A stretch of DNA of 47,702 nucleotides from a virus: the IMG/VR virus record IMGVR_UViG_3300046558_000408, positions 1 to 47,702 of that record; one strand, given 5' to 3'. A program made the translations under genes and the position numbers. Under the pieces are notes generated by a model, which saw only the letters and a program-made list of their open reading frames with translations, did not search any database and was not told the DNA's origin. Each line of letters begins with the position of its first letter. The stretch's first letter is position 1. Below are positions 6,337 through 45,533 of this stretch, piece by piece.

Positions 6337-6689
6337 GGCACTGCCCGGACAGGCGTCGGCTTACCCGCCGCGCACTGTTCGCCAATGAAAACCGCAACTT
6401 TTTCTGCGTCACTCGCCGGAATGACGAAACTGCAGCCGTTGAGCCAAAGGCTTGCTTCGCCGTCACCGTCGCCATCTAAATCGAGCCAAGGCAATTCATC
6501 ACGTCCACTCACGAACGCCAGCATCGTGGGTTGCTTGGCATGCGGCCGGCTGGATCGCCCGCGCGGCAGGTGGAAGAGAGACATCGTCCAGCCGGCGATC
6601 GTCCTTTCCAGCCGCACCTGAAGACGACCGAACTTAAGGGTCAACATGGCGAGGCTGTACGCCAAGGGCATCGTGGCGAGGCCGTTCAT
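6333..6689 (-). CDS. Unknown early protein with acidic Asp/Gly repeat
   Basis: 118 residues. The N-terminal half is beta-rich and basic ('LTLKFGRLQVRLERTIAGWTMSLFHL'). Then comes 'DLDGDGDGEASLWLNGCSFVIPASDAEKVAVFIGEQCAAG'. The D-x-D-G-D-G-D run resembles a calcium-binding loop but is too short to call. The first ATG (6689) overlaps the upstream stop in ATGA, favouring it over internal ATGs. Operon member with no recognised family. Confidence 0.56.
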   Translation of the reverse strand: MNGLATMPLAYSLAMLTLKFGRLQVRLERTIAGWTMSLFHLPRGRSSRPHAKQPTMLAFVSGRDELPWLDLDGDGDGEASLWLNGCSFVIPASDAEKVAVFIGEQCAAGKPTPVRAVP

Positions 6690-6988
6690 CCCTTCGCCCC
6701 GACAGGCAAGTGCAGGCGGTAGCCGAGGCCGCGGATGCTTTCGATTCGGTGGCCCGGAAACGCCTCGAGCTTCTGTCGCAGCCGGCAGATGACGACCTGG
6801 GCCACGTTGGACTTAGGCCGCGCCGCCTCGGCGCCGTGCAGGGCGTCGGCCAACGTCGCCAGCAGCACCGTCGCGCCGCCGGCGCGGATCAGGCGAGCCA
6901 GCACCTTGGCTTCTGCCGGGCTCAGCTTCACTCGCCGGCCATCGGCAACCGCCAGCAGGCCATCGAGGGCAATGTTGCCGCCGCTCAC
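6686..6988 (-). CDS. Stand-alone OmpR/PhoB-type winged-helix regulator
   Basis: 100 residues comprising only a response-regulator effector domain. 'LSPAEAKVLARLIRAGGATVLLATLADALHG' matches the usual 'LT..E..LL..L....G..VsR..L...l', and 'VAQVVICRLRQKLEAFPGHRIESIRGLGYRLHLP' matches the recognition helix plus wing of OmpR/PhoB proteins. There is no receiver domain and no room for one, so it cannot be phosphorylated like a two-component regulator. It sits second in the pL operon with ATGA overlaps on both sides. It likely binds DNA during early phage growth; targets could be phage or host promoters (inference). Confidence 0.82.
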   Translation of the reverse strand: MSGGNIALDGLLAVADGRRVKLSPAEAKVLARLIRAGGATVLLATLADALHGAEAARPKSNVAQVVICRLRQKLEAFPGHRIESIRGLGYRLHLPVGAKG

Positions 6989-7500
6989 GGGGTGACCTCA
7001 ACGAATGCGAGGTTGGAGATGACGCACTGCGACCGGGCCACCACAGGGGAGTTGGCCGGCTCATCGCCGTCCGCAGTGGACAGGGGGACCACCGCGTTGG
7101 CCCGGACGCAGGCGTCGGGGGAAATCATGAAAGACCCGTTGATGACCGCATCGACGGCGTCCAGAGAGGCCTGCCAGCGACGCGGCTCAAAGCCAGCGCT
7201 CACCGCCCGGGCGACGCCTGGAGAGCAATCCGGCACGCGGTCCGCATCACGGAAAGCGCTGAGTGCGGTGCTCGCGACCGTAGCGCGCAGACCGAAGTCG
7301 TCGGCAGCGGCCAATTCGTAGACCGCCAGCGCTGCGCACACCCGGGGGCTGGCGACCACCAGGCCTTCCGGAACGTGAGCCGGCTCGGCGGCAGGCGCAT
7401 CAGGTGAAGTTGCAATGCCCGCCACGGCCAGGGCGGCAAAGCAGGCGAGGGCAGCGATGCCGATCTGGCAACTGCGTTTGATACGGGGCGTCAGGGGCAT
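6985..7500 (-). CDS. Secreted or membrane-anchored protein, first gene after pL
   Basis: 171 residues from ATG 7500, chosen because GGAG lies 6 nt upstream; a TTG four codons earlier is the alternative. The N-terminus (RIKRSC then ~20 hydrophobic residues, AALACFAALAVAGIA) is a signal peptide or signal anchor. The exported part contains 'VCAALAVYELAAADDFGLRATVASTALSAF' and three or four Cys residues that could form disulfides. It is the first gene read from the predicted early promoter, so it should appear in the envelope soon after induction. Function unknown; a periplasmic modulator or superinfection-related protein is possible. Confidence 0.68.
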   Translation of the reverse strand: MPLTPRIKRSCQIGIAALACFAALAVAGIATSPDAPAAEPAHVPEGLVVASPRVCAALAVYELAAADDFGLRATVASTALSAFRDADRVPDCSPGVARAVSAGFEPRRWQASLDAVDAVINGSFMISPDACVRANAVVPLSTADGDEPANSPVVARSQCVISNLAFVEVTP

Positions 7501-7537
7501 GTCGTTCTCCAAACCCGGCGATCCCGGGCGTGGGAGA

Positions 7538-7566
7538 ACAATAGCGCCGCTATCGTTTAATTACAA
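7538..7566 (-). promoter_or_regulatory. Predicted early left promoter (pL-like)
   Basis: Read on the minus strand: -35 TTGTAA at 7566-7561, 17-bp spacer, -10 TATTGT at 7543-7538. It would start transcription near 7531 and drive the leftward genes down to int. An AT palindrome, AAAATCGATTTT (7582-7593), lies where an UP element would be. Operator copies overlap both hexamers. Confidence 0.75.
7541..7553. promoter_or_regulatory. Operator copy OL-a
   Basis: ATAGCGCCGCTAT, an interrupted inverted repeat ATAGC-N3-GCTAT. Its last three bases (minus strand) form the start of the -10 hexamer of pL. The same element occurs at 7566, 8906, 8941 and 8966, so it is the likely binding site of the repressor and/or Cro-like protein. 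Confidence 0.8.
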
Positions 7567-7578
7567 CAGCGGTGCTAT
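7566..7578. promoter_or_regulatory. Operator copy OL-b
   Basis: ACAGCGGTGCTAT, one mismatch in the left arm of the ATAGC-N3-GCTAT consensus. It ends on the first T of the pL -35 hexamer. It lies 25 bp, centre to centre, from OL-a. Confidence 0.75.
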
Positions 7579-7638
7579 CTAAAAATCGATTTTCTTGTGC
7601 GGCGATGCTTAACGAGTTCATCGCGGCCGCTGCTGGGC

Positions 7639-8070
7639 CTAGGTAGCCGGCGAGGTGATGCACTCCCTGTAGGCTGCGTTCTGGAACTCGGTGATCACCT
7701 GGTCGCGGACGTGCTCGGTCTGGATGAGCGGCCAGTCGTAGGCATCGACGACAATTTTTTCGTAGGCGCCGCCCGCTTTGGTCGCCGCTTCCATGACGTC
7801 TGCCATCGGCGCGCCCATCTGGCGCGCTGTCATCGTCCGCTCAGCAGCTGCTGCTATGCCTCTGCAGTGGCCGGTCGCGGCCTCAATGCTCGTCACAGAC
7901 TCCGGCGCCAGCGCTGCCGCTGCAGCGGCCTCGGCTTCTGCCGCTTGCCTGGTTGCTTCGGCCAAGGCTTCTTGGGCCGCCGTTCGATTGGCTGGGGATC
8001 CGCCCGCGCCCTGGGCGCACCCAGTGAGCAACACCACCATGAGCAGGGAAACGCCTGCGTAGTTGTTCAT
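7639..8070 (-). CDS. Prophage lipoprotein of the lysogenic operon
   Basis: 143 residues. The ATG at 8070 is preceded by AGGAG at 5-nt spacing. A short signal peptide ends in the lipobox L-L-T-G-C (Cys17), so the mature protein should be lipidated. With Ala-Gln after the Cys rather than Asp, outer-membrane sorting is expected. The mature part has a long Ala/Glu-rich coiled coil followed by a globular end with two further Cys ('GHCRG', 'YRECI'). It is the third gene of the repressor transcript, the position of lambda rexB. A role in superinfection exclusion or envelope modification in lysogens is a reasonable guess but not shown. Confidence 0.75.
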   Translation of the reverse strand: MNNYAGVSLLMVVLLTGCAQGAGGSPANRTAAQEALAEATRQAAEAEAAAAAALAPESVTSIEAATGHCRGIAAAAERTMTARQMGAPMADVMEAATKAGGAYEKIVVDAYDWPLIQTEHVRDQVITEFQNAAYRECITSPAT

Positions 8071-8084
8071 AGGCTCCTGCCTTC

Positions 8085-8483
8085 TTATCCGTATCGGTTC
8101 TTCAAAAGACCCGCGTCTTCGAAGGACACGCCGTCGCGCATGCATTCCTGCGCACGCTCGAGATCTTTGTGGAGCTGGATGAGCTGCTCATCGGGCAGCT
8201 GTTCAATCCCGGCCAGGCCGAAGCATGCCTGGTCAATGATCACCTGCATCGAACAGCCCCAGCGGCGGCGGATGTGGCGGATCATGCGAAAATGGGACTC
8301 CCTGTAGAGGTAGTCCATCCGCCCGGGCTTCTGCGCTTCGGCGGCGGCGCCTGTCTGTGCCTGCTTGCTGTCAGGCTGTTTTGCGCTTCCCACCACGGCG
8401 AGTTGCGGCTTCACGCCCATCTTGCGCTGGGCGCGCAAAGCGATCAGCTCCGCCAGCTTGTCCATCTCCCTGTCGAGATCCAT
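8085..8483 (-). CDS. Unknown gene overlapping the repressor's 3' end
   Basis: 132 residues. The ATG at 8483 has AAGGG 5 nt upstream, and the first 113 nt overlap the repressor frame, which is unusually long. The N-terminus is charged and helical. The C-terminal half 'YLYRESHFRMIRHIRRRWGCSMQVIIDQACFGLAG' and 'LPDEQLIQLHKDLERAQECMRDGVSFEDAGLL' looks like a conserved folded unit. It lies between the repressor and the lipoprotein gene, 14 nt from the latter, so it is probably expressed in the lysogen. A shorter protein from Met22 (8420) or Met56 would reduce the overlap. Function unknown. Confidence 0.65.
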   Translation of the reverse strand: MDLDREMDKLAELIALRAQRKMGVKPQLAVVGSAKQPDSKQAQTGAAAEAQKPGRMDYLYRESHFRMIRHIRRRWGCSMQVIIDQACFGLAGIEQLPDEQLIQLHKDLERAQECMRDGVSFEDAGLLKNRYG

Positions 8484-8904
8484 CTATACCCTTCCCCTGT
8501 TTCCGGATTTCAGCCGCCATCGCGACGCGCAGCGCCTGCGCGAAAAGATCGGGCGACTGTTCAACTTCGAACACGTCGCCGGTGGCCAGGCCAAGTGCCT
8601 TTCTCGCCACACCGATTGCGGACGTCACGATAGCTTCGTCAAGTCGCGTTACCTGAGACGAGCCGAAGTGGTCCATCAGGCGGGCGTACTCAGCGCTGAT
8701 TTGGCGGGGTTCTACGCGCAGTACATCAGCCAAGCGCTCAGCCTTATCCCACGGAACCGGGCGGTGGCCGCTGGCGAACTGGGAAATGAAACCGGGGGTG
8801 ACGTCCAGCAGTTCCGCGACAGCGGCCTGCGTGAGGCCCGCCTGCGCGACGGCTTCAGTGATGGCGAGGCCTTCTGCTGTCTTGGGATTGGCGGGTCTGG
8901 GCAT
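8371..8904 (-). CDS. Phage repressor (C1-like, XRE-type helix-turn-helix)
   Basis: 177 residues. The N-terminal domain has a clear helix-turn-helix: 'LTQAAVAELLDVTPGFISQFASGHRPVPWDKAERLADVL'. There is no S24/LexA peptidase domain (no Ser-Lys dyad context), so RecA-driven self-cleavage as in lambda CI is not expected. The C-terminal ~40 residues are Gly/Arg/Gln-rich and encoded in the region shared with the next gene, so this tail may be dispensable. Divergent from the Cro-like gene across three operator copies, which marks it as the lysogeny repressor. No Shine-Dalgarno precedes the ATG; the leader may be absent or nearly so. Confidence 0.87.
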   Translation of the reverse strand: MPRPANPKTAEGLAITEAVAQAGLTQAAVAELLDVTPGFISQFASGHRPVPWDKAERLADVLRVEPRQISAEYARLMDHFGSSQVTRLDEAIVTSAIGVARKALGLATGDVFEVEQSPDLFAQALRVAMAAEIRKQGKGIDGSRQGDGQAGGADRFARPAQDGREAATRRGGKRKTA

Positions 8905-8905
8905 G

Positions 8906-8918
8906 TTAGCAATGCTAT
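8906..8918. promoter_or_regulatory. Operator copy OR-c
   Basis: TTAGCAATGCTAT, one base after the repressor start codon on the upstream side. It covers the predicted -10 of the repressor promoter, so occupancy would shut off the repressor gene, as OR3 does in lambda. Confidence 0.75.
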
Positions 8919-8940
8919 TTGACTAGGTTCAGGAACACGA
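8912..8940 (-). promoter_or_regulatory. Possible repressor promoter (pRM-like)
   Basis: On the minus strand a weak -35 TCGTGT (8940-8935), 17-bp spacer and -10 TAGCAT (8917-8912) would give a transcript starting at or within a base or two of the repressor ATG (8904). The poor -35 would fit a promoter that needs activation. Low confidence; other hexamers are possible. Confidence 0.35.
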
Positions 8941-8953
8941 TCAGCGATGCTAT
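8941..8953. promoter_or_regulatory. Operator copy OR-b
   Basis: TCAGCGATGCTAT, with arms AGC-N3-GCTAT. Its final T is the first base of the rightward promoter's -35 hexamer, exactly as OL-b relates to pL. Centres are 35 bp from OR-c and 25 bp from OR-a. Confidence 0.75.
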
Positions 8954-8981
8954 TTACATGAGTTGATAGCGTTGCTATGGT
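8953..8981 (+). promoter_or_regulatory. Predicted early right promoter (pR-like), leaderless transcript
   Basis: -35 TTTACA (8953-8958), 17-bp spacer, -10 TATGGT (8976-8981). The start site would be about 8988-8990, i.e. at the ATG of the Cro-like gene (8990), which also lacks a Shine-Dalgarno. The mRNA is therefore predicted to be leaderless. Operators OR-b and OR-a overlap the two hexamers. Confidence 0.72.
8966..8978. promoter_or_regulatory. Operator copy OR-a
   Basis: ATAGCGTTGCTAT, a perfect ATAGC-N3-GCTAT. Its last three bases are the first three of the pR -10 hexamer, the same placement as OL-a at pL. Confidence 0.82.
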
Positions 8982-8989
8982 TCTGCCCC

Positions 8990-9238
8990 ATGAGCACACC
9001 CATTGAGCAGGCAATCGAAGCAGTAGGCGGGCAGGCGGCGATGGCGCGCCTGCTTCAAGTGCAACCGGCGATGGTTTCGCAGTGGGCCACGGGCCGGCGG
9101 CCGGTCGCGGCGCACCACATTCTGTCGATCGAGACCGCAACCGGCGTCTCCCGGCACGCGCTGAGGCCCGACGTGTTCGGTGATTTGGTCGAGACGGACC
9201 CGGACGCTGACCGCATCGTAGCCGTGGAGGGATGCTGA
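8990..9238 (+). CDS. Cro-like (YdaS-type) helix-turn-helix regulator
   Basis: 82 residues from ATG 8990. 'VGGQAAMARLLQVQPAMVSQWATGRRPVAAHHILSIETATGVSRHALRPDVF' is the typical Cro/YdaS pattern, where a short HTH is followed by 'RPV..H.I.IE..TGV.R..LRPD'. It is divergent from the repressor and the first gene of the rightward early transcript, hence the lytic switch protein. It has no Shine-Dalgarno and the predicted transcript starts at or beside the ATG. The C-terminal 'DPDADRIVAVEGC' recurs at the end of the next protein. Confidence 0.88.
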   Translation: MSTPIEQAIEAVGGQAAMARLLQVQPAMVSQWATGRRPVAAHHILSIETATGVSRHALRPDVFGDLVETDPDADRIVAVEGC

Positions 9239-10360: not shown

Positions 10361-10972
10361 ATGAAGTCACAGTCTCAGTTCCACGAACCCCGTTCCACGA
10401 CGGTCTTCCGCCACACGGCCGAGGCCATCCGCAACAGTAGCCATACCGATGCCAGTCTGGCGCAGGTCATTGCGGACCAGTACATGCGCGATGTCGCGCC
10501 TGGCGAACGAATCCTGACGTTCCACGTCGGTACCGACATGGACTCGATGGACAAGGCGCACAAGGCGAATGCCCAGATCGTGGCCCGCATCCGCAACGGC
10601 ACGGTGAAGATGCCGGCCGATCTTGAAGAGTCGTGGGTGCGCGCGCTGCCGCAGCCGTGGAGCGACAACTGCGCCCGGGAGCTGGCCAACCGCTACGGGT
10701 TCATCGGGGCCCGCATGCCCAAGCTGAGCCCCCAGGCGGGCGTGCTTTGCGTTGGCCGCATCTCGGTCGAATACGGCCAGACCATCGAGGCACTTGCGAA
10801 TGTGCTGGCCGATGGTCGCGTGTGCGTCCAGGACGTGCCCGAGCTGCGCACCGCGCGCGAGGAGCTGGCGCAAATGCGCGCGGCCATGGAGACGCTTGCG
10901 GCATACGTGGACGGCCACCTCTACATGTTCGATCCGTCCATCGGGGCGCCGCCGGCCGGGGTGCTCCAATGA
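10361..10972 (+). CDS. Unknown early protein, 203 residues
   Basis: 203 residues. Contains 'FHVGTDMDSMDKAHKANAQIVARIRNGTVKMPADLEESWVRAL' and 'NCARELANRYGFIGARMP', a combination I associate with conserved early proteins of phages from this host group, upstream of small HTH genes. The C-terminal 'LRTAREELAQMRAAMETLAAYVD' is a short coiled coil. GAGGTG lies 7-8 nt upstream of the ATG. Its TGA overlaps the next ATG (ATGA). It may be a regulatory or replication accessory protein; the function is not known. Confidence 0.72.
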   Translation: MKSQSQFHEPRSTTVFRHTAEAIRNSSHTDASLAQVIADQYMRDVAPGERILTFHVGTDMDSMDKAHKANAQIVARIRNGTVKMPADLEESWVRALPQPWSDNCARELANRYGFIGARMPKLSPQAGVLCVGRISVEYGQTIEALANVLADGRVCVQDVPELRTAREELAQMRAAMETLAAYVDGHLYMFDPSIGAPPAGVLQ

Positions 10973-14307: not shown

Positions 14308-15092
14308 GCGAGATGATGATTGGCAGCGCCGCGGTGCGCCGCGATGAGGCCGGGCGCTTCTGCCTTAACGACCTGCACCGCGCGTCGGGCGGGGAGCGGC
14401 GGCACCAGCCGGGTGAGTGGATCCGCTTGGGCCAGACCGAAGACCTGGTCGAAGAACTGGCCAAATCCGCAGATCCCCGTAGTTACCCGATCGACACCCG
14501 CGTCGGCCGCGGCGGCGGCACCTACGTGGCGCGTGAGCTTGTGTACGCCTACGCGATGTGGATCAGCGCCGCGTTTCACCTGCAGGTGATCCGAGCTTAC
14601 GACCAGCTGCAGGCCGCGCCGGCTGGGCCCAGCCCGCTGGTGGCGTTGGACGACCCGGCGACGTTGCGTGGCCTCCTGCTGACCTATACCGAGCGGGTCG
14701 AATCTTTGCAGGCGCGGGTCCACCACCAGGAACCGCAGGTGCGCGCGCTGCAGCAGCTCGCAGGCGCCGACGGTGCGTTCAACATCACCACCGCGGCAAA
14801 GATGCTTCAGATCAAGCCCCGCCAGCTGTTCGCGTGGCTGGAGCAGAACGGCTGGATCTATCGCCGGGCCGGCAGCCGCAACTGGCTCGCCTATCAACCC
14901 CGGCTCAACACGGGCGTGCTCAGCCATAAAGCCATCGTTACCGGTGGCAGGGACGACGTCCAGCGCGTGCACGAACAGGTGCTTGTGACCGCGAAGGGGC
15001 TGACTCGGCTCGCTGAGCTGATCAACCGCGAACAGCTCGGCTGGGCGCCGGCGGACCACACCCGCGCGCAGCACCTGACGGTGCCGGCATGA
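14304..15092 (+). CDS. KilA-N / KilAC domain antirepressor
   Basis: 262 residues. The TTG start at 14304 overlaps the upstream stop (TTGA), with GGAGG 7 nt upstream; ATG codons three codons further in are less well placed. Residues ~5-100 are a KilA-N domain ('GEWIRLGQTEDLVEELA', 'GGGTYVARELVYAYAMWISAAFHLQVIRAYDQL'). A coiled linker leads to a C-terminal KilAC/ANT domain ('FNITTAAKMLQIKPRQLFAWLEQNGWIYRRAGSRNWLAY...LVTAKGLTRLAELI'). Antirepressors of this type inactivate phage repressors and can trigger induction, plausible here because the repressor lacks a cleavage domain. Confidence 0.87.
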   Translation: MSEMMIGSAAVRRDEAGRFCLNDLHRASGGERRHQPGEWIRLGQTEDLVEELAKSADPRSYPIDTRVGRGGGTYVARELVYAYAMWISAAFHLQVIRAYDQLQAAPAGPSPLVALDDPATLRGLLLTYTERVESLQARVHHQEPQVRALQQLAGADGAFNITTAAKMLQIKPRQLFAWLEQNGWIYRRAGSRNWLAYQPRLNTGVLSHKAIVTGGRDDVQRVHEQVLVTAKGLTRLAELINREQLGWAPADHTRAQHLTVPA

Positions 15093-18801: not shown

Positions 18802-18886
18802 GGGGCGAGCTGCCAGATGGGCGCCGGGCCGGACTGTAAATCTGGCGTCTGAGACTCGCGTGGTTCGACTCCACGTCGCCCCACCA
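18802..18886 (+). tRNA. tRNA-Tyr (anticodon GTA)
   Basis: 85 nt with CCA encoded. Acceptor arms GGGGCGA / TCGCCCC are perfect. The anticodon stem CCGGA/TCTGG encloses loop CTGTAAA (anticodon GTA), there is a class II variable arm (GTCTGAGAC), and the T-arm is CGTGG-TTCGACT-CCACG. The length is exactly that of bacterial tRNA-Tyr. The D-arm (TGCCAGATGGGC region) pairs poorly, so the molecule is divergent and may be a phage-adapted or decaying tRNA. Confidence 0.82.
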
Positions 18887-18960
18887 TTCCGAACTACGGG
18901 GATTCCCGTAATTTCCACAAGTGACAATCAGGGCCGACCCCCGGCGGGGCCTTTCCGTTT

Positions 18961-19034
18961 GCGGGCCTGGCCGATTGGTCAGGCCTCACCCTTCCAAGGT
19001 GACCAGGTGGGTTCGATTCCCACGGCCCGCTCCA
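18961..19034 (+). tRNA. tRNA-Gly (anticodon TCC)
   Basis: 74 nt with CCA encoded. Acceptor GCGGGCC / GGCCCGC, D-stem GCC/GGC, anticodon stem-loop TCACC-CTTCCAA-GGTGA (TCC), and T-arm GTGGG-TTCGATT-CCCAC are all well formed. TCC reads GGA/GGG, codons that a high-GC host uses little, so it could help translate some phage genes. Confidence 0.93.
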
Positions 19035-36070: not shown

Positions 36071-36465
36071 TGCGGCCCGCAGATGTCGAGCCGTTCACGC
36101 TCATCCCCTACGACCCTGATTCAGCCGATTGCGCGGATCTGGTGGTCAGCGTCCAGCGCGAACTGTTCGGCCGGCATGTCGAGATGCCCAGCCGCCGGCC
36201 GCGCGGCGCGCGCGGGGAGGCCGAGTTGGGGGCGCTCTCCCGGCCCTATGCGCGATTGCGGGAGGGACCGCCGCAGGACGGCGATCTGGTCCTGATGTTC
36301 GACCACGGACAACGAAACCCCGGCCATGCCGGGGTTTTCTTCTTTCTGGCCCATGAGGGCTGGGTACTCCACAGCAACGAGCGCCACGGGTGCAGCGTCC
36401 TGCACCGCGTGCGCGAACTGCAGGGCTTCGGCCTGCGCATCGAAGGAATTTACGAATGGGTCTGA
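36070..36465 (+). CDS. NlpC/P60-type tail peptidase (gpK-like)
   Basis: 131 residues. 'DPDSADCADLVVSVQREL' contains the nucleophilic Cys, 'NPGHAGVFFFLAHEGWVLHSN' the His and surrounding strands. These fit the NlpC/P60 cysteine peptidase fold that cleaves peptidoglycan cross-links during DNA entry. It lacks the JAB-type N-terminal domain that lambda gpK also has, so it is a shortened version. The end overlaps J by 10 nt. Confidence 0.83.
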   Translation: MRPADVEPFTLIPYDPDSADCADLVVSVQRELFGRHVEMPSRRPRGARGEAELGALSRPYARLREGPPQDGDLVLMFDHGQRNPGHAGVFFFLAHEGWVLHSNERHGCSVLHRVRELQGFGLRIEGIYEWV

Positions 36466-39400
36466 TGGATAGCCCGGCCGCCAGCGGCCGCCTGATCGTG
36501 ACGCCGCACCCGGTGCTGGTCGATGGCCAGCGCAACCAGCCGGCGGACCTGCGCCCGGGCGAATCCCTCTGCGCCTTCCTGCATCGTCACGTGACCGACC
36601 TCGACGACCAGGACTGGGTGGTGCTGATCGGCGGCCGCGGCGGCCGCGGCGATCGCGGCATCCCTCGCGAAATGTGGCCCTTCGTGTACCCGAAGCATGG
36701 CCAGGTGATTGAAGTCCGTGGGGCGGTGGGCCGCTCCGCCGTCGCGCTGGTGGCCACCCTGGCGCTGACCTACTTCACCTTCGGCTTCGGCACGTTGGCG
36801 ACGTGGGGCGCCGGCGCCGCGGTGCAGGGGCTTGGCGCCGCTGCCGCGACCGGCATCTACATGGCCGGCTCCGTGCTCATCAACCGCGTGCTGCAGCCCA
36901 AGCAGCCGAAGCAGAGTGCTCCCGGCCAGTCGGCGTACTCGATCGCGGCCGGCCGCAACCGTGCTCGCCACGACCAGCCGGTGGGCCTGCTGATCGGGTC
37001 GATGCGCATCGCGCCGGACTTGATCAGCAACTACTACACCCATTACGAGGGTGACGACCAGTTCCTGTCGTTCGTGCTGACCCCCGGGCTGAACGTGCAT
37101 AGCGTGGAACAGCTCTACAACGGCGACGCACTGCTGTCGTCCTTCGAAGGGGTGCGCGTGTGGCACAACGGCTTCGCCGGGATGCCCAGCGCGGAGATCC
37201 CGCTGCACAGCAACGCCGATGTGACCGACGGCGGCACCTTGCTGGATACCAGCAACGACCCCAAGCATCAGCCGAGCGCGTGGGTGCAGCGCACCAGCTC
37301 CGCCGGCACCATCCGTCTGATGGTAGGCGTGGAGTTCCAGATCTGGGACCGGTCCACGAAGGGCAAGGACAAGCAGAACAGCGACCAGATCCAGATCCAG
37401 TACCGCGCCGCCGGCACGGTCAACTGGCAGGTGTTCGGCAATTACAACGTCCGCGGCACCAACAACAAGAGCCAGCGTGCCAGTTATGCGATCGACGTGC
37501 CCGAGGGGCAGTACGACGTGCGCGTGCGCGTGGCTGGCAACAACACTGACGGCTCGGGTGCTGAAGCGTCGTTCGTTTGGACCACGCTGACCAGCGTTCA
37601 GCGCGACACGGCGAGCTACGTCGGGATTCCGCGCATCGGCATCCGCATGCAGGCCAACGGGCAGCTCAACGGCGCTCCGGACGAAATCCGCTGCGTCGCC
37701 CATTCCATGCCGATTCCCGTCTGGACGGGCACGGAGTGGGTGACCCAGCGCACCAGCAATGCGGGGGCGTGGATCCTCGCCTATGCCCGTGGCATCTACG
37801 CGCCTGACCCCACCGCACCAGGTGGGCGCGCGCTGGTCGCCGGCATGGGTCTGCCCGAACGGCAGATCGATCTCGAGGGCCTCAAGGCCTTCATGCTCCA
37901 CTGTGCCGCCAACAATTTCACCTACAACAACTGGATCACGGATGTCCGCAGCCACCAGCAGGTGCTGGACGTGCTGGCGCTGGCCGGCTTCGGGCAGATC
38001 AGCTGGCCACGCGGGCGACTGTCCGTTGGCTGGGCTGCCGATGAGCAGCCGCTGTCGGGCGTGGTCAACATGGCCACGATCAAGAAGGGGCAGTTTCAGG
38101 TCGACTACACCCTGACCAATGGCGCCGACGGCATCGAGTACACCTATCTGGACAGCGCGACCTGGCAGCCCAAGACGCTGCGCGTGCCTGCCCCAGGCGT
38201 CACCACCATGCTCAACCCGGCCCAGGTGACGGGCGAGGGCGTAACCACCGAGGCGCACGCCGTGATGCTGGCCCGCTGGCACCTGGCGCAGAGCCTGTAC
38301 CAGTACAAGGCAATCAGCTACAGCACCGATATCGAACACCTGTCCTACAGTCGGATGTCGATGCTGGCGCTGCAGCACGACATGACGCAGTGGGGCTTCG
38401 GTGGGCGAATCAAGGGCGCTTCGATCACAGGCGGCAGGGCCACCCTGCAGCTTGACGAGCCCGTGCCGGCGCCCGCGCAGGGCAACGCCTTCGTTGGACT
38501 GCGCATCCCGGGAGAACGCGTGTACCGCGTGCTGCGTGTACAGCCCTTTGCCGGCACCAGCGACACCTTTGTGCTGGCCGATGGTTGGCCTGCCGATGCA
38601 GCCCTGCCGGGCAACAGCGAGGCCAACCCGGCCTGGGACACGCTGTGGATCTACGACTTCAAGCAGACCCCGGGCCTGCGCGTGCGCGTGACCAGCATCC
38701 GGCCCGAGAGTGACCTGAAGGGTGCCGCGGTCGAAGTGGTAGCGGAGAGCCCGCAGTTCTGGCAGTACGTGAAGACCGGAGAGTACGTCCGTGATCCGAA
38801 CGAATCCCTGCTGCAGACCCGGCCGGTGGCGAGCGACCTGAAGATCACCGAGCGCCAGGTGGTGCAGGGCGACACCGAGTACACCGAGCTGCAGGTCAGC
38901 TTCGCCATCACCGGTCCAGTGGGCGACACCGTGGTGCTTTCCGATCTGGACGGCAATGCGGCGCTCGAGGAAGTGGCCAGGACCGTCACCCGCACCGCGA
39001 CGTGGCGGATTCCGGGCGCTGGTACGTACCCGATCACCGTGCGGCCGTACAGCCCGGATGGCAACGCCGGTGTGGCGGCCTCCGTTATCTATACGACCCG
39101 GGGCGCCGACGCCCCGCCGGTGCTGGTGGACATCTTCGACGTGGAGCAGCTGAGCGGCGGTGTGCGCCGCTACACCTGGGGCTTCCTCGGCGAGACCATC
39201 CAGTCCGCCAACTTCGCCGGCGTGGAGATCCGCTATATCGCCGGCACCGTGGCCACGCCGGACTGGGATGCGATGACGCCGATCGGCGACGACGGTTACC
39301 ACGCCTCGGCCTTCGAGGCCGTGCTGCCGCCCGCTGGCGTGTGGACCTTTGCATGCCGCTCGCGCAATACCGCCGGCACCCTTTCCGCCGGCATGCGGGT

Positions 39401-42400
39401 GCTGGCCAAGACCCTGCAGGCCAACCTGGGCGAAGTGATCGGCGGCATCGAGGATTCGCTCGAGGAGCAGGTCCAGAGGCAGGTCGAGCAGCAGCAGCAG
39501 ATCGACCGCGATCGCGCCGACAGCATTGCGCGCGATGCAGCGGAGGCGGCTGAGCGCGCCTCCGCGTTCGCCCAGGCGCAGGTCGACCTGGTCAACGAGT
39601 CCGCCCTGCGCCGCGCCGCGGTCAACAAGGTCGCCGAAGACCTGGCCACCGAGGCGGGGCAGCGGGTGGCAGCGGTGAACGACGCCATCGGGAGGACCGA
39701 GGCGGTCGCGAACAGCCTTTCCGCTGAAACGCTGGCGCGGCAGCAGGCGCTGATCAATGAGCGCCTGGCACGGCAGGCCGAGGTCAGCGCTGAGAGCACT
39801 GCCCGGCAGACCGCCGACGATTCGTTCGCCCAGCAGCTGGCAATCATCTCTGCGGGCAGCGGCACGCAGTTCGACTTCAAGACTATCTGGTACTTCGACA
39901 CTGCCGTCGAGGGGTGGACCTCCAACGGGGGCACCCCGACGATGGTCAACGGCTGGCTGCGTCCGTTCAACAGTTCTGCAGCGCACGTGCAGTCCCCAGC
40001 TGGACTGGGCGTTGACGGCAACGCTTACCGCTTCGTCAAGCTGCGGATGCAGAAAGTTGGGAATCCAGCCTGGCTGGGTCGCGTGCGGTGGATCACCGAG
40101 GCGGACACCGCTTGGAATGACACCAAGATGGTCACGATCCCGCAGCCCGCGTTCGACGCCAACGGCATCGCGACGGTGGACGTGGACAACATTCCTTGGA
40201 ACGGCGCCTCGCCCATTCGCGCCATTCGGCTCGCGCTCACCGTCGCGCAGACCGCCGCCGATTACGTGCTGTATGACTACATCGCCGTCGGCCGGCCGGC
40301 ACCGGGCGCCAGCGTGGCGATGGTGCAGGCGGAGACGACCGCGCGCACCACGGCTATCGCGGCCGAGGCGACCCAGCGCAACAGTTTGGGCGCACAGCTG
40401 CGCGGCAACTACACCGGCAGCGACCTCGGCCAGGTGACGCAGGGGCTTATCGGCGATGAGAAGTCCGCCCGCGTGGCGGCTGACACCGCCCAGGTGACGC
40501 GCATCAGCACCATGGAGGCGCGGATGCCTTCCGGCGCCGGCCCGCTGGGCACGTCGGCGCGCATCGAGGAGGTCAACAGCGCCAGCGTGGCCCGGGACTC
40601 GGCGAACACCGACCTGATCACCAAGGCGCAGTCGGATCTGGGCGGCTTGGTCGCACAGGGCTCCAACATGGTCGTCAACGGCGGCTGGGAGCTGCCCGCG
40701 AACGTCGGTTGGACCTACTCGGGCACCAACCAGAGCGTCGCCGCTGAAGGGCGCACGGGCGGCAACTGCTGGAAGGCTCTGGGTAGCCCCGACACCCAGC
40801 GGGCGTCAGTCAACGCTGGGGCCAAGATGCCGGTTACCATCGGCCGCAGCTACCGAATTACTGCCTGGTACAAGACCAGCGCGGACTATAACGGCACTGG
40901 CGGCAACGGAAAGGTGCGCATCGGCCGCGGCGACGGAACGCTGATTGCGGGGCTGGCATTCGCCTCTAATCGCGCCGACTGGACCCAGCTGACCTACGAG
41001 CTGACCGCTACCACGGTCAACGAAATCGTCATCGGCATCACCAACGACGCCACGGCGGGCACGCTGTGGGTTGATGACGTGTGGATGGAGGAAGTCACCG
41101 AGGCCAAGGCGAACGCGACGGCGATCAGCGGCATCAACACCCGCGTGACGGCCGCAGAAGGCACGCTCACCTCGCAGGGCCAGCTGATCAATGCGCTGCG
41201 CACCGACGTGGACGGCAAGGCCAGCAACAGCGCAGTGACCGAGCTGACGGGCCGCGTCACCGTGGCTGAAGGGAAGATCGACACGCAGGGCCAGGCGATC
41301 AGCGCCGTTCAGACGGCTGTAGCCGGCAAGGCCGATACCAGCGCTATGAACGCGCTGACCGGCCGCGTGCAGACAGCTGAAGGCAAGATCGACGCACAGG
41401 CCACTGCGATCACCAACGTGCAGAGCAGTCTGCAGAACCTCGGCGGTGAAAACCTGCTGGGCAACAGTAGCTGGGACGTCGATGCGATTGGTTGGTCCAA
41501 CGCTAGCAGCGGTCAGGGTTCGGGCGGTATCACACAGTCGCTGGTGGACTCGGTGCTGCCAAACAGCGCCAAGGCCTGGCGCTGGAATATGAGCAACTGG
41601 CCAACCGCAGGCTACCGCGAGGCTATCTCCAACAGTGCCGTCCGCCAGCTGCGCGTTGAAGGCGGAAAGAAGCACGCCATGTCGTTGTACGCTCGCGGCA
41701 CCGCTGGCCCGCGCGTGTTCATGCAGATCCGATGGTACGACGCGGCAGGCGGCACCATCCGCTACAGCGGCACCCCGGCGGGCGCACCGTTCCTTGTCAC
41801 TGAGTTATGGGACCGAAAAGTCTTTGTGTTCGATGCACCAGCCGATGCCGTGTCAGCCAACGTGTACATCCGCATCTACGGTGCCAACACGGTTGATCAG
41901 TGGGTTGAACTGGACAACGTGCAGATCCAAGTCGGCGAAGTGGCCACCGGATACGCGCCGTCCATCGTCGAAGCCAAATCGTCCATCGCTGCCAACGCCG
42001 CTGCAACCAACGCATTGGACACGCGCGTCACTGTCGCCGAAGGGACCATCGTGGCCCAGGGCACGGCGATCACGAATGTAGCCAGCAACCTGCAGAACAG
42101 CGGGGGTGACAACCTGCTGCCTAACAGCAGTTTTGAGCAGCGCGCTAGCGAGGTTTCTGCGCCTATCAGCTGGGTTGTAGAAGGCACCATCCCGTCAGGC
42201 ATCTCCCAGTCCTACGTGGATTCACCGTTGTCAGGCGGTGGAAAGGCGTATCGCCTCGGCGGAACCACGACAGCTGCAAATCAGTATCTTGGTCTGGCAC
42301 TGGGCAACACTGCCGCTGTCCGGCCGGTTGCCAAGGGTGCAACGGACTACACGTTGTCGGGTTGGTTCCGCGCGCCGGTTGGCGAGATGGTGCGGACGTA

Positions 42401-45400
42401 CATGCAGTTTATGAACGCCGCCGGTGCGGTGATCGCAACCATCACCTCGCCCGATCAGATTGCCACTGGCGAATGGCAGCGTTACACGTTGACTGGTCGC
42501 ACCTCGCTTACCACAGCTGCCAGCATCCGCGTGTTCCCGTCACGTCTGTTCACCGCTGCGTCTGGCACGGCGACGTGGATTGAAATGGACAACGTGATGC
42601 TGCAGGAAGGCCCGGTGGCCACGCAGTGGTCGCCTAGTGTCGCCGAGGCTGCAGCAGCGGCAACCGCCAACGCTACGGCAACGAACGCGCTCAGCACGCG
42701 GGTAACTGCGGCAGAAGGCTCCATCACCAGCCAGGGCACGGCGATCACCAACGTGACGGCTAATCTGGCCACCACCGCAGCCAGCCTTGACGATGCGATT
42801 CGCGCTGGCAGCAACATGGTGGTTGACGGCAGCTTTGAACGTCGCGCTGTTGGCACGCTGCTGCAGTCATGGGCACCTATCGTTGCCAGCGGCCGCACGG
42901 GCGCGAACGCGCTGCAGATCGGATTCAACGGCGTAGTCCGCAGCACCACTATCCAGACGTTTGAAGTGACACCAGATCGCGTGTACTACGCCGAGGCGTG
43001 GGTAAAGCGGGTCGGCCCTGCGGCGGGGGCAATGTCACTGCGGTTTGCGGTCAGCGCCAACGGCAACAACCCGTCCTATCCCAACTTCGCGTCGCCCGCG
43101 CTGTCCACCTTCTCCGAAACCGATTGGACCAAGGTTAGCGGTTACGTGCGCGTTTCGGCCGGCAACAACCGCGCGCTGCTGCAGTTGAACAGTTCTGCTG
43201 CCACCACGTCGGCCACGCAGCTGCTGTGGGATGACTTCGTGCTAATGGACGTGACCGAGGCGTACAACGCGCAGCTGTCCGCCAATGCTGCAGCCCAGGC
43301 CACCACCGATCTGACGGCGCGCGTGATTACCGCCGAGGGCAAGATCGACGCGCAGGCCACGTCGCTGACCCAGGTGCAGAGCAACATTGGAGCCTTGGAG
43401 GAGGGGGGCAACGTCCTGCTCAATGGCAAGTTCACCACCGACGCGGCCAACTGGTACGACTCGGCCGCCGGCAGCTCCTTCTCCTGGGATGCCAGCGAGC
43501 GGGCGCTGGTATCGGGTGCGGGATCCCTGCGCGTGCGCGCCAACGAGTTCAAGGTGAACCCCGGCGACAGGATCGTGGTGTCCTTCCGCTACAAGGTGAG
43601 CGCCGGGACGACCAGCACGGCCTCCGACACCGTTGGCCTGATCACCAGCCTCACCAGCCCCACCAACTGGCTGGTGTCCAGCGGCGCCTTCTCCTCGGGC
43701 ACGGGCGCCGGCCAGTGGCAGACGCGGCGGTACGAATGGTCCATCCCTGTCTCGACAGCGCCTGGCACAACGGTCTATCTGCGCTTCGCCGTCGGATCCA
43801 TTACGCCGGCGGCAGGCCAGATGTGGCTGGACGATGTAGTGGTCAACGTCGGGTCCACGGTGGCCACGCTCAATGCTCAGGGCGCGGCCAACGCCCAGGC
43901 CGCGTCGTCCTTGAATACCCGAGTTACTGCAGCCGAAGGCACGCTTACCAGCCAAGGCACGGCCATCACCAACGTGACGGCCACCGCCAACGCTGCGAAG
44001 GGCACGGCCGATGCGGCCGCGTCTGGCCTGGCCGCCACGCAGGCCACGGTCACTCAGCAGGGGAATACGATCACGGCGCAGGGTAGCCAGATCAATTCGG
44101 TGCAGGCGTCGCTGGGCGGCAAGGCCGATGCGTCTGTAGTGCAGAGCATGCAGGTGCAAGTAAGCAACGCCACAAGCGGTGGAAACCTGCTTGTCAACTC
44201 CATGTTCCCTCGATGGCAGCGCACAGGTTGGGGCTGGGGCGGAAATGCCAGTAACTGGGGGGAGCTTGGCGATCCAACAGGGGACGGAAACTGGAGCCCG
44301 CTGGGTGTCACGGGAATTGGTTCCTCGGCGGGCGGCACGCCGCCGGCGGGGCAGGTGAGCTGGCTGGGCACCGAGTACAACATCTCAGTAATCCCGGGCA
44401 AGACTTACTGCCAGTCGGCATGGGTGAACGGTCATCGCTGCGACCTGATCCTGGAGCTGACTTGGATAGACGCGAACAACAACGCCATCAGCAACGTAAA
44501 CAGTGCTGGATGGCTACAAAACATTGGTGGAAACCCGCGCGAAGGTCTGCACCTGATCCCGCGGCCCTTCATCATCGCAAAGGCCCCTGCCAACGCGGTC
44601 GGTGCACGCTTCCGATTGCTGGTCAACGGTCGGGGCGAGGCGAATCCGTACCTCTGGATGTTCCGCCCGATGTTCAGTCAGGTCGACCCGGGCACGACGC
44701 AGCCACCTGAATGGTCATCGGGCGGTGCAGAAACATTCGCCGAAGCGTCGATCATGACGAACGTCAACGGGATGATCAGCGGCTGGCAAAACAAGAACAA
44801 CGGCACTACCAGCGAGTTCAACATCCTGGCCGATGCACTAAACGTTCTGGGCTCCGGCGGGGTTGACGGTTTCGAGATGACCAAGGGCCGTATCCGTGCG
44901 TGGTCTGGAAACTTCCAGGCAATTATCGGGGCACCGTTCGGACCCGACGGTCTGATGCTTTATTTCGGTCCAAATGTCGGGGTCGACAACGCCAGCAAGG
45001 CCATCGCCACTATCTGGTTCGACCGTTTTGGGAATGCCTACTGGGGTGGCGCTATCGCAGCAGGCGCGCTGAAGAACGCGTTCCAGTCCACCAGCATTCA
45101 GACCGTGGGCAACTCCGTCACCGTGGGTCCGTTCGACACTAATGGGCGAAACAAGAATGTCGTGGTCAGCTTCCAGCGCAACATCCGGCGCCTGAAGTGG
45201 GCTGGAGGCGCAACTGGCTTTGTCGCTGGGGGCGGATCCAACTACGCAGTCATCCAGGTATTCCGGCAGGTGGAGGGCCAGGCCGAGACGCTGTGGACCC
45301 AGTTCACCGTCGGCGGCGATGTCACGATCTTCAATCAGAACGATGGCAGTGACAGCGCTGAGTCGTATTGGAACGGGGCCTACACGCTTAACGACCAGTC

Positions 45401-45533
45401 TGACGGCACGACGCGCCGCACCTACCGGGCGGTTGTGGCCGATTACGGCGAGCGCTCCATCACCCACCAATCGGGTTCCTTCGATACGCAGAACGTAACG
45501 CAGAGCCTGTCGTTAGTGTCTCTCGAGCAGTAA
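36456..45533 (+). CDS. Giant host-specificity/tail tip protein J with I-like N-terminus and repeated lectin-like modules
   Basis: 3025 residues, 2.7 times lambda J (1132). ATG 36456 has AAGGA 8 nt upstream. Residues ~1-160 include a hydrophobic Gly/Ala-rich stretch ('VALVATLALTYFTFGFGTLATWGAGAAVQGLGAAAATGIYMAGSV') like lambda gpI, so I and J seem fused. Residues ~160-1000 are the TipJ baseplate-like core with fibronectin-like ends ('VVLSDLDGNAALEEVARTVTRTATWRIPG'). After a coiled coil come seven beta-sandwich modules (about 1139-1285, 1401-1548, 1662-1835, 1882-2061, 2117-2266, 2317-2466, 2573-2755), most opening with '(S/E/D)N(M/L)(V/L)xN/D(G/S)SxE'. They are joined by helical 'TAAEGTLTSQGTAITNV' repeats. 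A DUF1983-like region (from ~2755) ends in a beta-rich tip. Confidence 0.92.
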   Translation: MGLMDSPAASGRLIVTPHPVLVDGQRNQPADLRPGESLCAFLHRHVTDLDDQDWVVLIGGRGGRGDRGIPREMWPFVYPKHGQVIEVRGAVGRSAVALVATLALTYFTFGFGTLATWGAGAAVQGLGAAAATGIYMAGSVLINRVLQPKQPKQSAPGQSAYSIAAGRNRARHDQPVGLLIGSMRIAPDLISNYYTHYEGDDQFLSFVLTPGLNVHSVEQLYNGDALLSSFEGVRVWHNGFAGMPSAEIPLHSNADVTDGGTLLDTSNDPKHQPSAWVQRTSSAGTIRLMVGVEFQIWDRSTKGKDKQNSDQIQIQYRAAGTVNWQVFGNYNVRGTNNKSQRASYAIDVPEGQYDVRVRVAGNNTDGSGAEASFVWTTLTSVQRDTASYVGIPRIGIRMQANGQLNGAPDEIRCVAHSMPIPVWTGTEWVTQRTSNAGAWILAYARGIYAPDPTAPGGRALVAGMGLPERQIDLEGLKAFMLHCAANNFTYNNWITDVRSHQQVLDVLALAGFGQISWPRGRLSVGWAADEQPLSGVVNMATIKKGQFQVDYTLTNGADGIEYTYLDSATWQPKTLRVPAPGVTTMLNPAQVTGEGVTTEAHAVMLARWHLAQSLYQYKAISYSTDIEHLSYSRMSMLALQHDMTQWGFGGRIKGASITGGRATLQLDEPVPAPAQGNAFVGLRIPGERVYRVLRVQPFAGTSDTFVLADGWPADAALPGNSEANPAWDTLWIYDFKQTPGLRVRVTSIRPESDLKGAAVEVVAESPQFWQYVKTGEYVRDPNESLLQTRPVASDLKITERQVVQGDTEYTELQVSFAITGPVGDTVVLSDLDGNAALEEVARTVTRTATWRIPGAGTYPITVRPYSPDGNAGVAASVIYTTRGADAPPVLVDIFDVEQLSGGVRRYTWGFLGETIQSANFAGVEIRYIAGTVATPDWDAMTPIGDDGYHASAFEAVLPPAGVWTFACRSRNTAGTLSAGMRVLAKTLQANLGEVIGGIEDSLEEQVQRQVEQQQQIDRDRADSIARDAAEAAERASAFAQAQVDLVNESALRRAAVNKVAEDLATEAGQRVAAVNDAIGRTEAVANSLSAETLARQQALINERLARQAEVSAESTARQTADDSFAQQLAIISAGSGTQFDFKTIWYFDTAVEGWTSNGGTPTMVNGWLRPFNSSAAHVQSPAGLGVDGNAYRFVKLRMQKVGNPAWLGRVRWITEADTAWNDTKMVTIPQPAFDANGIATVDVDNIPWNGASPIRAIRLALTVAQTAADYVLYDYIAVGRPAPGASVAMVQAETTARTTAIAAEATQRNSLGAQLRGNYTGSDLGQVTQGLIGDEKSARVAADTAQVTRISTMEARMPSGAGPLGTSARIEEVNSASVARDSANTDLITKAQSDLGGLVAQGSNMVVNGGWELPANVGWTYSGTNQSVAAEGRTGGNCWKALGSPDTQRASVNAGAKMPVTIGRSYRITAWYKTSADYNGTGGNGKVRIGRGDGTLIAGLAFASNRADWTQLTYELTATTVNEIVIGITNDATAGTLWVDDVWMEEVTEAKANATAISGINTRVTAAEGTLTSQGQLINALRTDVDGKASNSAVTELTGRVTVAEGKIDTQGQAISAVQTAVAGKADTSAMNALTGRVQTAEGKIDAQATAITNVQSSLQNLGGENLLGNSSWDVDAIGWSNASSGQGSGGITQSLVDSVLPNSAKAWRWNMSNWPTAGYREAISNSAVRQLRVEGGKKHAMSLYARGTAGPRVFMQIRWYDAAGGTIRYSGTPAGAPFLVTELWDRKVFVFDAPADAVSANVYIRIYGANTVDQWVELDNVQIQVGEVATGYAPSIVEAKSSIAANAAATNALDTRVTVAEGTIVAQGTAITNVASNLQNSGGDNLLPNSSFEQRASEVSAPISWVVEGTIPSGISQSYVDSPLSGGGKAYRLGGTTTAANQYLGLALGNTAAVRPVAKGATDYTLSGWFRAPVGEMVRTYMQFMNAAGAVIATITSPDQIATGEWQRYTLTGRTSLTTAASIRVFPSRLFTAASGTATWIEMDNVMLQEGPVATQWSPSVAEAAAAATANATATNALSTRVTAAEGSITSQGTAITNVTANLATTAASLDDAIRAGSNMVVDGSFERRAVGTLLQSWAPIVASGRTGANALQIGFNGVVRSTTIQTFEVTPDRVYYAEAWVKRVGPAAGAMSLRFAVSANGNNPSYPNFASPALSTFSETDWTKVSGYVRVSAGNNRALLQLNSSAATTSATQLLWDDFVLMDVTEAYNAQLSANAAAQATTDLTARVITAEGKIDAQATSLTQVQSNIGALEEGGNVLLNGKFTTDAANWYDSAAGSSFSWDASERALVSGAGSLRVRANEFKVNPGDRIVVSFRYKVSAGTTSTASDTVGLITSLTSPTNWLVSSGAFSSGTGAGQWQTRRYEWSIPVSTAPGTTVYLRFAVGSITPAAGQMWLDDVVVNVGSTVATLNAQGAANAQAASSLNTRVTAAEGTLTSQGTAITNVTATANAAKGTADAAASGLAATQATVTQQGNTITAQGSQINSVQASLGGKADASVVQSMQVQVSNATSGGNLLVNSMFPRWQRTGWGWGGNASNWGELGDPTGDGNWSPLGVTGIGSSAGGTPPAGQVSWLGTEYNISVIPGKTYCQSAWVNGHRCDLILELTWIDANNNAISNVNSAGWLQNIGGNPREGLHLIPRPFIIAKAPANAVGARFRLLVNGRGEANPYLWMFRPMFSQVDPGTTQPPEWSSGGAETFAEASIMTNVNGMISGWQNKNNGTTSEFNILADALNVLGSGGVDGFEMTKGRIRAWSGNFQAIIGAPFGPDGLMLYFGPNVGVDNASKAIATIWFDRFGNAYWGGAIAAGALKNAFQSTSIQTVGNSVTVGPFDTNGRNKNVVVSFQRNIRRLKWAGGATGFVAGGGSNYAVIQVFRQVEGQAETLWTQFTVGGDVTIFNQNDGSDSAESYWNGAYTLNDQSDGTTRRTYRAVVADYGERSITHQSGSFDTQNVTQSLSLVSLEQ

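Follow-up and report, generated by a model that had tools for sequence, protein, structure and literature searches.

Organization of the probable immunity region

The window analysed here is the whole of IMGVR_UViG_3300046558_000408, a single virus record of 47,702 bases. An integrase gene lies at its left end, and genes for a lambda-type portal, an S49 head protease, a tape-measure protein, and tip proteins lie on the right, indicating that the phage is lambda-like and temperate. A repressor gene and a cro-like gene diverge, leftward from 8904 and rightward from 8990, with three dyads between them and two more 1.4 kb away. The genes that bear on the switch are as follows.

8371..8904, minus strand: repressor gene (177 aa); lambda-repressor-like helix-turn-helix and a helical C-terminal part, without S24 peptidase
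8990..9238, plus strand: Cro-like gene (82 aa); YdaS/P22-Cro type, a sequence relative of the solved Cro protein 3bd1
8085..8483, minus strand: ORF of phrog_27415, downstream of the repressor gene and overlapping its end
6985..7500, minus strand: first gene behind the leftward promoter, with the Shine-Dalgarno sequence GGAG
14328..15026, plus strand: KilA-N plus ANT (KilAC) protein, a putative antirepressor on the rightward side, assigned from domain matches

The phrog_27415 ORF likely shares the repressor transcript, as part of an inferred operon. The second gene behind the leftward promoter (6686-6988, minus strand) encodes a stand-alone OmpR-type winged-helix DNA-binding domain (PF00486), and a gene of a CII-like activator family (phrog_4834; 10361-10972, plus strand) lies downstream of cro. 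Further to the right, the record carries genes for tRNA-Tyr and tRNA-Gly (18802-19034, plus strand) and an open frame of 3047 aa that includes a gpJ tip-attachment FNIII domain (36390-45533, plus strand) and is very long for a 47.7-kb phage.

The repressor and the Cro-like protein

In a domain search, the repressor matches HTH_31 and HTH_3 above the cut-off, and S24 peptidase is found neither in the protein nor anywhere in the window, in agreement with the first-pass annotation, which described a repressor lacking a peptidase domain. The AlphaFold model of the repressor is confident at the helix-turn-helix and fair for the next helices; the tail is disordered, and the model is unreliable past residue 140. 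The best PDB matches in a fold search include the N-terminal domain of lambda cI (E about 0.01-0.02) and also P22 c2. A PDB sequence search gave no confident relative of the repressor, and the fold search backs the helix-turn-helix part only. The repressor had no match among 50,697 phage records.

The recognition-helix residues F39-F43 (FISQF) are invariant in 21 repressors, despite identity down to about 46%. A (V/I)SQ(W/F) motif is common to the Cro-like protein and the repressor helix, compatible with the two proteins reading one operator.

Five dyads cluster at two early promoters

The five dyads are listed below under the names of the putative operators, without strand.

7541-7553: OL1, ATAGCGCCGCTAT (ATAGC-GCC-GCTAT); supplies TAT of the leftward -10; conserved in relatives
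7566-7578: OL2, ACAGCGGTGCTAT (ACAGC-GGT-GCTAT); overlaps the leftward -35 by one base, the first of the hexamer
8906-8918: OR3, TTAGCAATGCTAT (TTAGC-AAT-GCTAT); 1 bp off the repressor ATG; holds the presumed PRM -10
8941-8953: OR2, TCAGCGATGCTAT (TCAGC-GAT-GCTAT); centre at -43 relative to the repressor start
8966-8978: OR1, ATAGCGTTGCTAT (ATAGC-GTT-GCTAT); supplies TAT of the rightward -10

The first-pass annotation had described five copies of ATAGC-N3-GCTAT confined to the two early promoters, one of them lying against the repressor start. The five dyads are indeed there, with OR3 1 bp from the repressor ATG, but only two are exact. The other three have one, one, and two mismatches, all within the outer two bases. 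AGC-N3-GCT is common to all five, as is the right arm GCTAT when read on the plus strand. A search of the window for the 13-mer with mismatches allowed finds, outside the switch, one place with a single mismatch (41335, with the GC core disrupted) and nine places with two.

Such dyads might in principle arise from chance or compositional repetition. The whole-window count at up to two mismatches is 15 against 8.5 expected, a moderate excess that by itself leaves room for this explanation. Position and spacing, however, do not: five sites at up to two mismatches fall in ~160 bp of intergenic DNA, where 0.028 would be expected (P about 1e-10); dyad pairs 23-26 bp apart number two, against none in 200 simulated sequences. 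As the dyads are also conserved in 37 loci (see below), we reject chance clustering, the probability of which is negligible.

Conservation of the dyads in related loci

A repressor-based search gave 37 loci (34 viral and three in genomes, Stenotrophomonas UBA11113, S. bentonitica, and S. humi) with repressors 45-99% identical. They comprise, with the window included, 27 distinct regions, and the relatives are related among themselves. The OR3–OR2 distance of 35 bp and the OR2–OR1 distance of 25 bp are kept in 37/37 loci, as are a 17-bp promoter spacer, a -35 of the form TTTAC(A/T), and a -10 of the form TATG(T/G/C)T. The OL pair is present in all 34 loci with sufficient flank, 25 bp apart (26 in L033), and the leftward -10 is TATTGT in all loci read except L034 and L072, where it is TATTCT. 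Across the 27 distinct regions, the major base accounts on average for 97% in the operator arms versus 75% in the spacers (P=7e-8, with kinship ignored). The core of OR3 is invariant in all 27. A literature search found no earlier description of such a Stenotrophomonas switch.

Many helix-turn-helix regulators recognize dyads this long, so the sites might also serve some host regulator or be an element of general use. In the three Stenotrophomonas genomes, however, the perfect 13-mer occurs three, two, and three times over all contigs, and every copy is inside the prophage switch. A density elsewhere in prophage or host similar to that in the switch, which the first-pass annotation had named as grounds for abandoning its reading, is thus not seen. 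In sister phages, moreover, a different phage repressor goes with different dyad letters. We therefore reject a host-regulator element, which is very improbable.

Sequence footprinting in the relatives, uniqueness in the host genomes, the divergent repressor and Cro genes, and the exchange of operator letters in sister phages all argue for the earlier proposal that the dyads are immunity operators. Very probably, the region is an OL/OR-type immunity switch belonging to a temperate phage of the lambda type, with the dyads as its putative operators.

Promoters and probable start sites

The following promoter elements are recognized.

8953..8981, plus strand: PR-like rightward early promoter; -35 TTTACA (8953-8958), 17-bp spacer, extended -10 TGC-TATGGT (TATGGT 8976-8981)
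7538..7566, minus strand: PL-like leftward early promoter; -35 TTGTAA (7566-7561), 17-bp spacer, -10 TATTGT (7543-7538)
8917-8912, minus strand: presumed PRM -10 TAGCAT, within OR3

At both early promoters, as the first-pass annotation had noticed, one dyad runs just one base into the -35 and another contributes the three leading bases of the -10, with centres 25 bp apart and a 17-bp spacer. The rightward promoter is picked up by an independent, stricter consensus scan too, which does not report the leftward one. The third spacer base of OR1 is T in 25 of the 27 distinct regions, which gives TGC-TAT, an extended -10. On the sense strand of the leftward promoter, the last spacer base of the OL1 sites is C or A.

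The OR3 spacer is (A/G)AT in all 27 distinct regions, with AT invariant; OR2 and OR1 are variable at the corresponding positions. In the leftward direction, the constant spacer yields TAGCAT, a -10 from which transcription of the repressor gene would begin at its ATG. No -35 of PRM could be recognized. Position 2 of OR2 is never T in the 27 distinct regions (C in 26, G in one), and this conserved non-consensus base suggests a tuned affinity.

The distance from the -10 to the cro ATG is 6-8 nt throughout the relatives. Shine-Dalgarno sequences are absent ahead of both the repressor ATG and the cro ATG, and one is present at the first leftward gene. Judging from this arrangement, both the repressor and the cro mRNAs are quite probably leaderless. 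The proposal has a precedent in phage PY54, where leaderless mRNAs for both regulators were shown by RACE (PMC4488713).

A terminator-like match at 7572-7547 was rejected; it arises from base pairing between the two OL dyads. The leftward transcript has, in its leader (7500-7535, minus strand), a G+C-rich hairpin directly before the Shine-Dalgarno sequence, and L029-L031 have different but perfect, strong hairpins at the same place. In most relatives the hairpin is weak against shuffles, and we dropped it as a conserved feature.

Comparison with the lambda switch

We measured the lambda geometry on the annotated lambda record J02459. The first-pass annotation held that both the operator sequence and its register differ from those of lambda. 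The former holds, with 13-bp ATAGC-N3-GCTAT dyads here and 17-bp sites in lambda. The latter does not: OR1, OR2, and the distance from OR2 to the repressor start are all within 1 bp of lambda. The -35 starts at +6 from the OR2 centre in both phages, the -10 starts at +4 from the OR1 centre here and at +5 in lambda, the OR2 and OR1 centres are 25 bp apart here and 24 bp in lambda, and the OR2 centre, counted from the first base of the repressor gene, lies at -43 here and at -42 in lambda.

OR3 is the exception. It is shifted by roughly one turn of the helix, with an OR3–OR2 distance of 35 bp (23 bp in lambda) and a centre at -8 (-19 in lambda), and it adjoins the repressor start codon with a gap of 0 or 1 bp, overlying the probable -10 and start.

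In several respects the two switches are alike. Three operators lie between divergent repressor and cro genes, and the same operators recur at a second, leftward promoter; OR2 sits on the -35 and OR1 on the -10 of PR; the helix-turn-helix of the repressor has the lambda-repressor fold; and the repressor mRNA is probably leaderless. The differences are that cro is probably leaderless here too, that the Cro protein is of the YdaS/3bd1 type, and that OL and OR are about 1.4 kb apart. Only two OL sites were found here, whereas lambda has three. In addition, the repressor has no RecA-stimulated self-cleaving C-terminal domain (S24), which is typical of lambda and P22. This domain is not universal in lambdoid phages, as the Gifsy repressors are without it (PMC3121763). 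The switch thus belongs to the lambda type, with an operator specificity of its own and a non-cleavable repressor, and does not represent a novel class of system. Its promoter-operator geometry at OR1 and OR2 persists with a different operator and a repressor that cannot be cleaved.

A model for the switch

The switch is probably the route by which a Stenotrophomonas temperate phage picks dormancy or host killing. In the model that we propose, a dimer of the 177-aa repressor on OR1/OR2 and OL1/OL2 would silence both early promoters. On OR2 (centre -43), the repressor would contact RNA polymerase at its own weak promoter (-10 TAGCAT in OR3) and would raise its own leaderless mRNA. Occupation of OR3, by excess repressor or by the Cro-like protein early in lytic growth, would block repressor synthesis. 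Induction may come through inactivation of the repressor by the KilA-N/ANT protein encoded in the early operon. We infer binding, the order of affinities, positive control, OL–OR looping, and antirepressor induction; the anatomy of the region and its conservation are observed.

The operators may instead serve repression only, the repressor shutting its own and the early promoters with neither positive control from OR2 nor OL–OR looping. The displacement of OR3 fits this alternative, as occupancy of a site so placed could be chiefly autorepressing, and so does a small repressor without the C-terminal domain through which lambda repressor acts cooperatively. However, the OR2 centre is at -43 in every relative, or at -42 where OR3 directly abuts the ATG, next to -42 in lambda, and simple repression needs no fixed spacing of 35 bp. 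Repression alone has a substantial, if less than even, probability; for positive control of PRM from OR2, we lean slightly in favour.

Relation to other temperate phages

Three known systems resemble the switch in part. Like the immB region of PY54, N15, and phiKO2, it has leaderless regulator mRNAs (observed in PY54, predicted here), and it shares with N15 a set of three OR and two OL operators (PMC4488713). It differs from that group in that PY54 has a single OR3 site for Cro, that those prophages are plasmids, and that their operator letters are others.

Gifsy phages have non-cleavable lambdoid repressors under antirepressor control (PMC3121763). The likeness of these lambdoid prophages to the present phage lies in a small repressor without a cleavage motif and an antirepressor gene (putative here) outside the immunity region. 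Their antirepressors are small and LexA-controlled. The candidate here is a KilA-N/ANT protein encoded in the early region, and a search of the window for two kinds of LexA-type box was negative (no TTAGN6TACTA with one mismatch allowed, and no exact CTGTN8ACAG).

In the RacR-YdaS-YdaT modules of Rac and CP-933P (PMC5700373, PMC8630535, PMC9986795), the protein in the Cro position is likewise of the YdaS family (PF15943), and a phrog_4834 CII-like gene likewise lies downstream; for repressor and operator, the comparison was made at the family level. Toxicity is not at issue here.

The operator map, complete and backed by comparison, covers a prophage family seen in numerous contigs (three from Stenotrophomonas genomes), and it predicts immunity groups.

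Sister switches and induction

A Cro-based search found sister phages in which a homologous Cro lies opposite an S24 repressor (L059-L067; the S24 match of L069 is weaker). Their dyads are of the AAAGC/CAAGC-N3-GCTTT type, or of an AAAC type in L064. OR2 and OR1 are 23-24 bp apart, the position relative to cro is unchanged, and in the AAAGC groups a third dyad lies at the repressor start. The recognition helices of the Cro proteins differ too, SPQAVNQW versus PAMVSQW or PALVSQW. The comparison indicates that the operator letters change together with the repressor and the Cro recognition helix. Cleavable and non-cleavable sister switches form a natural pair for studying the joint change of an operator and its two readers, and the induction of such prophages.

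With a repressor incapable of self-cleavage, induction has to result from loss of the repressor or from its inactivation by another protein. A putative antirepressor gene, a feature of antirepressor-induced prophages, is present in the genome. A KilA-N/ANT gene occurs in 14/21 records with a non-cleavable repressor versus 0/7 with a cleavable one (Fisher 0.006, with kinship ignored), and S24 matches elsewhere in the record occur in 2/21 of the non-cleavable group (those of L018 and L022). From its domains and distribution, the KilA-N/ANT protein is possibly an antirepressor, and is the best candidate inducer in this genome. However, its gene sits inside the operon that PR would drive and that the repressor would silence, so it is insufficient on its own to explain induction, and 7/21 relatives in the non-cleavable group are without it. 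The induction trigger is the least settled step of the mechanism.

As a tentative reading, a Stenotrophomonas prophage family may have swapped a self-cleaving repressor for a small non-cleavable one, or the reverse, within the same Cro-based switch. The operator letters would have changed with it (AAAGC versus ATAGC arms), a KilA-N/ANT antirepressor would have been acquired so that induction no longer depended on RecA cleavage, and both divergent regulators would be expressed from leaderless mRNAs started by operator-embedded -10 elements.

By eye, the repressors of L068 and L034 have different helix-turn-helix domains and similar C-terminal parts (a MAATVTVLR..YL motif), a likeness that suggests swapping of a repressor module.
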